A DNA stretch of 64,000 nt from Rhodospirillales bacterium. Its GTDB lineage: Bacteria > Pseudomonadota > Alphaproteobacteria > SMXQ01. The notes under the pieces were generated by a model. The model was given only the letters and a program-made list of their open reading frames with translations, was not told the DNA's origin and made no database searches. The stretch spans positions 62,001 to 126,000 of the forward strand of contig JABIXC010000010.1 in NCBI GenBank assembly GCA_018666775.1. Reading direction: 5' to 3'. The position numbers and the translations under genes were made by a program. Shown piece after piece: positions 20,904 to 25,164 of the stretch; position 1 is the stretch's first letter; every line of letters begins with the position of its first letter.

Positions 20904-21749
20904 ATGATCAAAAATATGAATAATGGAGCGATCAATCCAAGCGCATCCTCTTCGAGAGAAGATGCGCCCACACCCGGAGATCATGGTTATATGGCTGAGT
21001 CTGAAGATCCTGTTCGCACCAAGCCTACATTTTCCCTTGGGCGTCTTGTGCCGCTTGGGGTGATGGCGGCGGCATTGATTGCCTTTTTTGCCCTTGATCT
21101 AAATCAATATCTTAATTTTGGTGCCCTCAAGGACCATCAGGAAACCTTGTCGGGCTTCGTTGCCAGCAACGCAATATTGGCAGCGGTCCTTTTTATCGTG
21201 ATTTATGCGGTGTCGACGGCGATTTCACTGCCCGGCGGTGCCATCCTGACCATTGCCGGTGGGTTCCTGTTTGGTACCCTGATTGGGACGGTTTATGTGG
21301 TCATTGGGGCGAGCCTTGGGGCTACGGGCTTGTTTCTGGCTGCGCGAACCGCATTGGGGGAACCCTTGCGTGCCCGCGCGGGTCCCCAGCTTCAGCGGAT
21401 GGAAAAGGGATTTCGTGAAAATGCGTTCAGTTATCTTTTGTTTCTAAGGCTGATCCCCATCTTCCCTTTCTGGCTGGTTAATCTGGTCCCGGCGTTTCTT
21501 GGGGTGCCCATTGGCACCTATTTCATCGGCACGTTGATTGGCATTATTCCCGGCAGTTTTGTGTTTGCCTCTGTGGGCAATGGCCTTGGTGCCTTGTTCG
21601 CCGCAGGTAAGACGCCGGATTTAGGTATTATTTTTGCCCCCGACATTCTGATCCCCATTGCTGGCCTTGGATTGCTGGCATTGGTGCCGGTGCTTTACAA
21701 ACGGTTCAAAGATAAAAAGAAATCCGATCATTCAGGTTTGGGGGGCTGA
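20904..21749 (+). CDS. TVP38/TMEM64 (VTT/DedA-like) membrane protein
   Basis: Integral membrane protein of 281 residues in the VTT (SNARE-associated Golgi, DedA-related) superfamily. A hydrophilic N-terminus of about 45 residues precedes six or so hydrophobic segments. The family core GGAILTIAGGFLFGTLIG and the later re-entrant-like NLVPAFLGVPIGTYF are visible. Related DedA proteins act in lipid-carrier flipping and membrane homeostasis. It sits 3 bases before a flavin disulfide reductase, a pairing often seen in proteobacteria, so the two probably work together. A second paralogue lies at 58008. Confidence 0.88.
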   Translation: MIKNMNNGAINPSASSSREDAPTPGDHGYMAESEDPVRTKPTFSLGRLVPLGVMAAALIAFFALDLNQYLNFGALKDHQETLSGFVASNAILAAVLFIVIYAVSTAISLPGGAILTIAGGFLFGTLIGTVYVVIGASLGATGLFLAARTALGEPLRARAGPQLQRMEKGFRENAFSYLLFLRLIPIFPFWLVNLVPAFLGVPIGTYFIGTLIGIIPGSFVFASVGNGLGALFAAGKTPDLGIIFAPDILIPIAGLGLLALVPVLYKRFKDKKKSDHSGLGG

Positions 21750-21752
21750 TCC

Positions 21753-23186
21753 ATGGCCGATATTATAAAAGCAGATCTTTGCATTATTGGTGGCGGTTCA
21801 GGCGGGCTTTCGGTTGCTGCCGGTGCCGCACAAATGGGGGCCAAATGCGTTTTGGTGGAAAAGGCAAAGATGGGCGGTGATTGCCTTAATACCGGCTGTG
21901 TCCCATCCAAATCTCTTTTGGCAGCTGCCCACACGGCCCATGATGCGCGCCACGGGGCACGCTTCGGAATTGATGCCGGGGAGGTGAAGGCCGATTTCGC
22001 CCGGGTGCATGATCATGTCCATGGGGTAATCGCATCCATTGCCCCCCATGATTCCGTTGAACGGTTTGAAGAACTGGGCGTGCAGGTCATAAGTGCTGCA
22101 GCAGAATTTACCGGCCCCCGGGATTTGATTGCGGGTGAAGCCCATATTCAGGCGCGGCGCTATGTGATTGCGACGGGGTCGCGCGCCTTTGTGCCGCCCA
22201 TTCCGGGCCTTGATTCTGTTGCTTATTTTACCAACGAAACCATTTTTGATTTAACCGATTGTCCCCGCCATTTGATTGTTATCGGCGGCGGGCCGATTGG
22301 TCTGGAAATGGCTCAGGCCCATCGCCGTCTGGGGGCGGAGGTCACGGTGATCGAAGGCCTTACCATCATGAATAAAGATGATCCAGAGCTGGTGGAAGTG
22401 GTGCGTAGCGCCATGAAGAATGAGGGCCTGGCGCTCTATGAAGGGGCCAAGGTTAGCTCCGTTGAAAAAGCCGATAACGGTGAGCTGCGCGTTTCTTTTG
22501 AAAAGACAGATGGGGGGATTGGCGAAATTACGGGTTCCCACCTGTTGGTGGCTGTTGGGCGCGCCCCCAATGTTCAAAATCTTGGTCTGGATGCGGCAGG
22601 GATCACCCACAGCCCGCGCGGGATTGAGGTGGATGCCCGGTTGCGCACGTCCAATAAGCGCATCTTCGCCATTGGCGATGTGGCGGGGGGCTATCAATTT
22701 ACCCATGTCGCGGGCTACCACGCGGGCGTGGTCATCCGTAACGCGCTGTTCCGCCTGCCAGCCAAGGCCGATCATTCAGCGATCCCCTGGGTCACCTACA
22801 GCGCGCCAGAGCTGGCCCATGTGGGTTTAAGCGAAGCAGATGCCAAAGAACAATTTGGCGATAGCGTTCAGGTCTTGCGCGCAGAATTTTCTGAAAATGA
22901 TCGCGCCCGGGCAGAGCGGGCAACCGATGGCCTGCTAAAGGCGGTGGTTACGAAAAAAGGCAAGGTTCTTGGCGCATCCATTGTTGGCGCCCATGCGGGT
23001 GAATTGATCCTGCCCTGGGTGTTTGCGGTTCAAGGCAAACTTAAGGTCAAGGACATGGCCTCTGTGATCGCGCCCTATCCAACGCTTTCTGAAATCACCA
23101 AACGCGCCGCTGGCAGTTTTTATACCCCCAGTCTGTTCTCAGACCGAACCCGTCGTCTTGTGCGGTTTCTGGGCCGGTTTGGCTGA
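21753..23186 (+). CDS. FAD-dependent disulfide reductase (dihydrolipoamide dehydrogenase-like)
   Basis: Flavoprotein of 477 residues in the pyridine-nucleotide disulfide oxidoreductase family. FAD-binding GGGSGGLSVAAGA, redox-active cysteines C44 and C49 in GGDCLNTGCVPSK, NAD-binding GGGPIGLEMA, and a C-terminal dimerisation domain are present. It is often named mercuric reductase in databases, but it lacks both the N-terminal heavy-metal domain and the C-terminal cysteine pair of true MerA, ending RRLVRFLGRFG, so I do not use that name. The TVP38-like membrane protein just upstream is its likely partner. Confidence 0.9.
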   Translation: MADIIKADLCIIGGGSGGLSVAAGAAQMGAKCVLVEKAKMGGDCLNTGCVPSKSLLAAAHTAHDARHGARFGIDAGEVKADFARVHDHVHGVIASIAPHDSVERFEELGVQVISAAAEFTGPRDLIAGEAHIQARRYVIATGSRAFVPPIPGLDSVAYFTNETIFDLTDCPRHLIVIGGGPIGLEMAQAHRRLGAEVTVIEGLTIMNKDDPELVEVVRSAMKNEGLALYEGAKVSSVEKADNGELRVSFEKTDGGIGEITGSHLLVAVGRAPNVQNLGLDAAGITHSPRGIEVDARLRTSNKRIFAIGDVAGGYQFTHVAGYHAGVVIRNALFRLPAKADHSAIPWVTYSAPELAHVGLSEADAKEQFGDSVQVLRAEFSENDRARAERATDGLLKAVVTKKGKVLGASIVGAHAGELILPWVFAVQGKLKVKDMASVIAPYPTLSEITKRAAGSFYTPSLFSDRTRRLVRFLGRFG

Positions 23187-23335
23187 TCCACTATCTTTCA
23201 CAATAACGTGATCTGAGTTCATTGGACCGGGAACGTGTTTTGCCGCTCAATAGGCATTGTATCCAGGCCCCGATGATCGGTGCCGGAATGAGCCGGAAAT
23301 TTTAATTCCAGTAAAATATAATCAAGGAGGTTCTT

Positions 23336-23572
23336 ATGTTTAAAAAATCTCTTACCGCATTGACCATTGCCGCAGCGGCGACAGCGATGACCCTACCGGC
23401 TGCCATTGCAGCACCGGCAGATGTTGCGTCTATTCAGGTTGCAGCGTGTAATCCCTGCAAGGCCAAAAGCCCCTGTAATCCCTGTGCAGCCAAAAACCCG
23501 TGCGCGGCTAAAAATCCGTGTGCTGCTAAAAACCCCTGTGCAGCCAAAAACCCCTGTGCGGCTAAGCACTAA
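23336..23572 (+). CDS. Small exported Cys-rich repeat protein
   Basis: Protein of 78 residues. Residues 1-26 form a clear signal peptide ending AIA. The mature part of about 52 residues carries eight cysteines and ends in CAAKNP six-residue repeats (four full copies plus CAAKH), preceded by CNPCKAKSPCNP. Synonymous codons differ between repeats, so the amino-acid pattern is being kept. AAGGAGG lies 5 bases before the ATG, predicting strong translation, and a perfect terminator follows. I do not know a function; metal or copper binding, or a modified peptide, is conceivable. No maturation enzyme is adjacent. Confidence 0.8.
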   Translation: MFKKSLTALTIAAAATAMTLPAAIAAPADVASIQVAACNPCKAKSPCNPCAAKNPCAAKNPCAAKNPCAAKNPCAAKH

Positions 23573-23624: not shown

Positions 23625-23663
23625 CGGCATGGCTCCTGGCATTGGAGCCATGCCGTTTTTTTT
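23625..23663 (+). terminator. Rho-independent terminator after the Cys-rich repeat gene
   Basis: A perfect 12-bp stem (23625-23636 with 23644-23655, arm CGGCATGGCTCC) with a 7-base loop is followed by eight T residues (23656-23663). It lies 53 bases after the stop and isolates the small gene as its own transcript. Confidence 0.92.
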
Positions 23664-23733: not shown

Positions 23734-25164
23734 ATGACACCCATGCACCCGCCCGCCCCATCACCGATGCCTTCATTGGCAAAATCGCTATCGGCGCGCC
23801 TTCTGTTGCTGACAATCGTCTGCGTCATGCTGGCTGAGGTTCTGGTGTTTGCGCCCTCTATCGCCCGGTTCCGGCTGAACTGGATGGAAGACCGGATCTC
23901 TGCGGCCCATCTTGCAACCATGGCCTTGGAGGCCACCCCAAATCGTGCCATCGCCAAACCGCTGGAAGAGGAACTGTTGCGCCATGTGCAGGGGTATGGC
24001 GTTATTTTGCAGAAACCGGGTTCCAAAGTTTTGATGTTATCTGCCGATATGCCGCCTTCGGTTGATGCGACGGTTAATCTCGCAAACGCGACATTCTTCG
24101 GCCTGATTGGTGATGCGTTATCGACCCTGATCCGATCCAAAAACCGGGTGCTGCGGGTTATGGGGCCATCGCCCCGGGACGCCAACATCATCGTTACGGT
24201 GGTTTTGGATGAACGGCCTTTGCGCGATAAAATGATTGCCTATGGATGGCGCATATTGGGGCTATCGGTCATCATATCGTTGTTTACCGCAGCGCTGGTG
24301 TTCCTCAGCCTGCAATGGTTGATGGTGGCGCCCATGCGGCGCATCACAACGTCCATGGTGGCCTTTCGTGAAGATCCCCTTGATCCGGAAAGCAGGGTCG
24401 TGCCCAGTGCCAGGCGTGATGAAATTGGCGTGGCCGAACGAGAGCTTTCAACCCTTCAGACCCGCCTTCGATCTGCCCTTCGCCAGCGTGAAAGTCTGGC
24501 GGCCCTGGGAGAGGCCGTGGCAAAAATCAATCACGATTTGCGCAACATGCTGGCCACCGCACGATTGGTGTCTGAACGCATGGCCTATAGTGATGATCCC
24601 GATGTCAAACGCGCCTTGCCCACACTGGAACGCGCCATTGATCGGGCCGTGGCACTGTGCACCCAGACCCTTAATTTTGCCGAGGAACGCAATGAGCTGA
24701 AATTTTCGCGGTTTAATCTTGTGGAAATGCTGGCCGAAGTGCCCGTCGCTGTTCCCGTCGCCGTTCCAGTCGCGGGCACAAAAGACAGTGGCACAAAAAT
24801 GGTGACGGAAATCCCCGTTGACTTGAACGTGACGGCGGATCGGGATCAATTGTTTCGGGTGTTTGCCAATTTGACCAAAAATGCCTTTGAAGCGGGGGCC
24901 ACCACGGTAACCACCCGATTGATTGATGAAGATGATGATGGCGGCGTTATCGGGTTGGCACTATCCGATGATGGACCGGGGATGCCTGAAAAATCGGTTG
25001 AACATTTATTCAAGGCTTTCGCGGGCTCAACCCGGGCCGGGGGCACGGGCCTTGGGTTGGCCATTGCCCGCGAAGTCATGGAAGCCCATGGCGGCAGCAT
25101 TGACCTGTCTGAAACAGGCGCGGGCGGCACTGTCTTTCATTTAAGGCTGCCCAAAAAAGACTAA
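23734..25164 (+). CDS. Orphan sensor histidine kinase
   Basis: Membrane sensor kinase of 476 residues. Helix 1 is about residues 20-46 and helix 2 about 170-195, flanking a periplasmic domain of about 120 residues. HAMP follows (about 195-250). The phosphorylated histidine is H267 in INHDLRNM. The ATPase domain has NLTKNAFEAG, DDGPGMPE and GGTGLGLAIAREV. HDLRN, rather than HELRT, places it in a less common histidine-kinase group. No response regulator is encoded in the window. A tandem PVAV repeat lies between the two kinase subdomains. Confidence 0.9.
   Translation: MTPMHPPAPSPMPSLAKSLSARLLLLTIVCVMLAEVLVFAPSIARFRLNWMEDRISAAHLATMALEATPNRAIAKPLEEELLRHVQGYGVILQKPGSKVLMLSADMPPSVDATVNLANATFFGLIGDALSTLIRSKNRVLRVMGPSPRDANIIVTVVLDERPLRDKMIAYGWRILGLSVIISLFTAALVFLSLQWLMVAPMRRITTSMVAFREDPLDPESRVVPSARRDEIGVAERELSTLQTRLRSALRQRESLAALGEAVAKINHDLRNMLATARLVSERMAYSDDPDVKRALPTLERAIDRAVALCTQTLNFAEERNELKFSRFNLVEMLAEVPVAVPVAVPVAGTKDSGTKMVTEIPVDLNVTADRDQLFRVFANLTKNAFEAGATTVTTRLIDEDDDGGVIGLALSDDGPGMPEKSVEHLFKAFAGSTRAGGTGLGLAIAREVMEAHGGSIDLSETGAGGTVFHLRLPKKD
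24742..24777 (+). repeat. 12-base tandem repeat inside the histidine kinase gene
   Basis: Three consecutive 12-base units encode PVAV, PVAV and PVAG, differing at a few third positions. They lie between the dimerisation helices and the ATP domain, where they lengthen the linker. Probably a replication-slippage product kept in frame. Confidence 0.7.

Follow-up and report, generated by a model that had tools for sequence, protein, structure and literature searches.

The window, a 64,000-nucleotide stretch of a Rhodospirillales genome (G000), contains a 78-residue open reading frame at positions 23336-23572 of the forward strand, which translates to MFKKSLTALTIAAAATAMTLPAAIAAPADVASIQVAACNPCKAKSPCNPCAAKNPCAAKNPCAAKNPCAAKNPCAAKH. 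The features of the locus are given below with their coordinates in the window and, in brackets, the basis of the assignment.

20904-21749, forward strand: VTT/TVP38 membrane protein, conserved upstream neighbour (PF09335; conserved gene order)
21753-23186, forward strand: FAD pyridine-nucleotide-disulfide oxidoreductase, conserved upstream neighbour (PF07992/PF02852, NCBIfam; conserved gene order)
23324-23330, forward strand: Shine-Dalgarno sequence AAGGAGG, with the ATG 5 nt downstream (sequence)
23336-23572, forward strand: gene of the exported Cys-array protein, 78 residues (open reading frame, homologues, synonymous-only repeat differences)
23336-23410, forward strand: predicted Sec signal peptide, about residues 1-25, AIA/A (by eye; N-terminus conserved in homologues)
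23447-23572, forward strand: Cys array with eight cysteines at gaps of 3, 6, 3, 6, 6, 6 and 6, in units CNPC and CAAKNPC (sequence)
23625-23663, forward strand: intrinsic terminator, a 12-bp stem followed by eight T (terminator scan, sequence)
23734-25164, forward strand: sensor histidine kinase, conserved downstream neighbour (PF00512/PF02518; conserved gene order)

A preliminary description of the gene had reported a ribosome-binding site, a signal peptide, eight cysteines in repeats and a terminator of its own, all of which are borne out by the sequence. The N-terminus displays, by eye, the features of a Sec signal: KK, a hydrophobic stretch and an AxA motif. All eight cysteines lie downstream of this signal, and the predicted mature protein of about 53 residues is a free-standing array with no heme domain. 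A consensus scan of the forward strand found no sigma-70-like promoter. The peptide matched no Pfam family at E-values up to 10, and thus no metallothionein or copper storage profile, and sequence searches of NCBIfam and the PDB left it unassigned.

The repeat comprises four exact AAKNPC units, whose DNA differs by at least six changes, all of them synonymous. With 22% of the possible changes being synonymous, the chance of such a pattern in these units is about 1e-4. Together with the spacing of the cysteines, which is kept across many genomes, this variation between units supports the earlier proposal that the protein pattern is under selection.

A search for homologues with the repeat in related species had also been proposed, and 8 of the 10 further genomes sampled from the GTDB family of the source genome contain them. 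The gene order near the VTT, MerA-like and histidine kinase genes is kept, with some variation, in several genomes of this family, and the same neighbourhood, again somewhat variable in order, is found in four further families (G011, G026, G037 and G038). Because its place near these genes is kept across families, the window gene is considered an inherited gene and not a chance open reading frame. The oxidoreductase of this neighbourhood is MerA/lipoamide-dehydrogenase-like, scoring below the curated cut-offs.

The Cys array was found in three forms: free, fused to cytochrome P460 and, outside the class Alphaproteobacteria, joined with a cytochrome c of the SoxA/TsdA type. The array-bearing relatives of the window genome have free arrays, P460 fusions, or both. 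The source genome itself encodes a second array protein of 329 residues, in which a signal and two NPCAAK repeat blocks are combined with a cytochrome P460 domain bearing a CTECH motif; its gene adjoins one encoding a DUF6969 protein. Genes for UspA and a TAXI-TRAP transporter stand beside the P460-array paralogue (L005:8712-12766) and recur at about 35-40 of 80 DUF6969 loci. In two genomes (L120 and L154:11557-12474), the array interrupts the P460 domain at the loop that follows the Lys-bearing strand. This insertion, together with the fusion to two unrelated redox hemes, suggests that the array is a functional appendage.

In 76 array proteins, gaps of 3 or 6 make up about 80% of the 1367 gaps between cysteines. 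Strict modulo-3 spacing was dropped as a rule, gaps of five residues being also common, and the 3/6 period is a tendency. The residues between the cysteines vary by lineage (NPC, GAC, GPC, AAK, AMK), and the versions of family f185, outside the class, gain Met and His (NPCAMKH). Sequence of such simplicity does not prove that all arrays descend from one ancestor. No match to the array was returned by BLAST from a plasmid collection, where the low-complexity filter may hide some, and the open-access literature searched yielded no description of the family.

The heme part of the paralogue in the source genome was assigned to PF16694 with 33.7 bits (cut-off 27) and contains the CxxCH motif. Residue K67, in the numbering of alignment A4, is invariant in 22 of 22 P460-part sequences. 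The profile aligns it with the Lys of GTVTVK in 8gar, which concerns the presence of the residue alone and does not imply the cross-link itself. The position of the heme-cross-linking Lys is counted as Lys106 in NsP460 in a 2025 review of P460 (PMC11928373), a text in which a term search found no Cys-array fusion. The distal carboxylate that hydroxylamine oxidation requires is not clearly present: an ungapped hand comparison places Phe at its position, with Glu three residues later. The paralogue and its relatives thus resemble cytochromes P460 and c'-beta in domain, CxxCH and Lys position, whereas the window protein differs in having no such heme part. Likewise, the array proteins outside the class resemble SoxA/TsdA cytochromes c by their PF21342 domain and differ from them by the array in cis; no Sox operon stands beside the loci that were read.

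A survey of the neighbours of repeat proteins, also put forward in the preliminary description, was run, and DUF6969 (PF22308) is the gene that accompanies the array in each of the three forms. Genomes were searched with a consensus array query written for this purpose, and six weak array matches were removed post hoc for low identity, stops or a short frame. Among 385 genomes of the class, DUF6969 is present in 46 of 49 with arrays and 43 of 336 others, an odds ratio of about 104 on raw genome counts, with kinship addressed by a family tally alone; before removal of the weak matches, the count was 48 of 55 array genomes. In that tally, each of the 25 families with arrays in the class has DUF6969, which occurs in 44 families. 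In 35 of the 48 genomes with both, an array and DUF6969 lie no more than 8 kb apart. Exceptions exist in both directions. DUF6969 is missing from three array-bearing genomes of the class, from array-bearing G407 (family f183) and from all 13 genomes tested of family f185, which has arrays; conversely, DUF6969 occurs with no array in Sinorhizobium meliloti, for instance, as well as in 43 genomes of the class.

The gene at 23336-23572 does not have DUF6969 as a neighbour in the window. DUF6969 adjoins a free array in G026, following the very genes that lie upstream in the window, and free arrays beside DUF6969 are also found in G091, G205, G177, G273 and others. In G568, a free array is located a few bases upstream of DUF6969. 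P460 arrays are adjoined by DUF6969 in G000 and G477, and SoxA/TsdA-type arrays in G719 and G448. In G011, two P460 genes without array are on contigs other than that of DUF6969. An NPC-type array is in reach at 18 of 80 named DUF6969 loci, including those of Thalassospira and Magnetovibrio, and a CGAC-type array is present at one more. In a tree drawn quickly from 59 DUF6969 proteins, the array-linked ones are spread, requiring at least seven changes, though a single origin may still account for them. As the array and DUF6969 are what these otherwise unlike loci share, DUF6969 most likely concerns the array, although its target may be some other protein that these loci have in common.

Two array neighbourhoods were also noted for their other genes. 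At four loci of family f185 (L267:3623-7843, L268:3840-8061, L274 and L278), genes for an ArsS radical SAM protein and an ArsM-like methyltransferase stand by a short array and a fusion of an array to a SoxA/TsdA-type cytochrome, in many cases along with a multiheme cytochrome, and DUF6969 is absent. The G568 locus (L280:3208-7391) comprises the short array and DUF6969 with two rhodaneses, a YeeE/TsuA-like transporter and a BigR-like regulator, the matches to the latter two both falling below cut-off.

DUF6969 is His-rich and, having no signal peptide by eye, is taken to be cytosolic. It has 32 invariant residues, among them H52, H70, H72, H85, H87, H89 and H121. Searches of Pfam, NCBIfam and PDB sequences matched it solely to the Pfam family that bears its name, one of unknown function, and it was not named in the open-access literature searched. 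The model of its structure is confident (pLDDT 94.3, pTM 0.92) and returned no convincing match in the PDB (best Foldseek E-value 0.5, best VIA-align Z-score 4.1), by which a new fold is not proven.

The preliminary description had likened the protein to MNIO-modified peptides, a suggestion that did not survive the genome survey. No MNIO gene (PF05114) was found in the whole source genome, which is 98.2% complete, or in most of the repeat-bearing relatives, and among the 385 genomes MNIO does not co-occur with the array (16 of 49 array genomes, 132 of 336 others, odds ratio 0.75, p=0.43). The window protein does have a Sec signal and several cysteines, as do bufferin precursors (PMC12452194), and the BufA2 profile gave a sub-threshold match of 11.7 bits (cut-off 60). 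Because MNIO was not found in the genome and is unassociated with arrays, a bufferin-type RiPP modified by MNIO fails at its defining feature and is extremely improbable here. Bufferins and oxazolins, of which the repeat-bearing ones carry many cysteines (PMC12452194), are Sec-exported, Cys-rich, small or repetitive, and linked to a cytosolic partner gene, as is the array; here, however, the partner is DUF6969 and not MNIO, the motif is another, and no family is matched above cut-off. By analogy it is plausible that the array works like a bufferin; that it is one is not supported.

Another candidate modifier was an FGE-sulfatase/SUMF1-like protein, secreted and bearing a GCGxCRPAARH motif, which is found at 43 of 80 DUF6969 loci (L175-L254) and 15 of 18 array loci. 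It was rejected as a required modifier, the window genome holding an EgtB/SenA-like FGE protein only. Secreted FGE/SUMF1-like genes were also observed at L051:6716-7594 and L053:6694-7584. The EgtB/SenA-like DinB-FGE enzyme of the source genome (L255, C7:379273-380049) lies, by eye, next to a glycosyltransferase-like gene, and the pair possibly belongs to an ergothioneine or selenoneine pathway.

Metal binding or modification of the window protein, as initially envisaged, is plausible from its sequence. Statistics establish the linkage between arrays and DUF6969; that the array binds metals or small molecules, and that DUF6969 works on it, we infer. The favoured explanation, to which a probability of about 0.5 is assigned, is that of a periplasmic thiol array capturing soft metals or reactive sulfur or nitrogen species, with DUF6969 as a dedicated partner or maturase. 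The window gene would provide a free-standing periplasmic member of a family of Sec-exported arrays, a multi-thiol surface that would buffer soft metal ions, Cu(I) being the first candidate, or the reactive species. In the sister proteins, the array is joined to a redox-active heme of c type, either P460 or SoxA/TsdA-like, so that heme and array probably share one chemistry. With its conserved His clusters, DUF6969 probably acts on the array before export as a maturase or chaperone, since it accompanies free, P460 and SoxA-type arrays alike. The hints on the ligand are mixed and none is decisive: Met and His residues and Ars neighbours in family f185, sulfur genes in G568, and a heme of the NO/hydroxylamine type in the alphaproteobacterial fusions.

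Metallothioneins and copper storage proteins are Cys-dense and a possible store of metal. The array shares their density of cysteines and differs by its export, its mainly 3/6 spacing and the lack of a Pfam match. An unmodified periplasmic buffer of this kind, with DUF6969 serving some other protein and linked through shared regulation or ancestral gene order, is a contender, strengthened by the Met- and His-containing arrays of f185, which go without DUF6969, and by the genomes that have DUF6969 and no array. It is nevertheless considered rather unlikely, as DUF6969 accompanies all three forms in unlike neighbourhoods. The cysteines may otherwise carry or sink reactive sulfur, taking up sulfane sulfur or thiosulfate in the manner of SoxY, for oxidation or release by the fused heme. 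The fusion to PF21342 cytochromes, the rhodaneses at the G568 locus with its below-cut-off transporter and regulator, rhodanese at 15 of 80 DUF6969 loci, and the disulfide-reductase-type neighbour in the window are all consistent with such a role, but in the alphaproteobacterial fusions the heme is P460, of the hydroxylamine/NO type, and most array loci have no sulfur-oxidation genes, which makes it improbable. A disulfide-cross-linked envelope protein, structural or disordered and with no binding role, would fit the low complexity and the export; it is very improbable, since the two unrelated heme fusions and the insertion in the P460 loop suggest a functional appendage.

The explanation by a thiol array with DUF6969 as partner can be extended, tentatively and at less than even odds, to a cytosolic maturation system of which DUF6969 would be the founding enzyme. 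It would modify Sec-exported Cys arrays, in parallel to MNIO and independently of it, and the modified arrays would be metal- or small-molecule-binding modules, free or carried by periplasmic heme enzymes. DUF6969 gains with these loci its first genomic context, and a Cys-array module is defined that recurs in free peptides and in two heme proteins unrelated to each other. A route that yields exported, Cys-rich, metal-binding peptides independently of MNIO is suggested. Cultured relatives are available for direct testing, arrays adjoining DUF6969 in Thalassospira. The window gene belongs to a widespread, conserved family of arrays, for which the literature searched gave no description, and its partner is unexpected. 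Free or joined to heme proteins, and tied to DUF6969 by gene order, these arrays suggest a new system that would handle metals or reactive small molecules on the outer side of the cell membrane.
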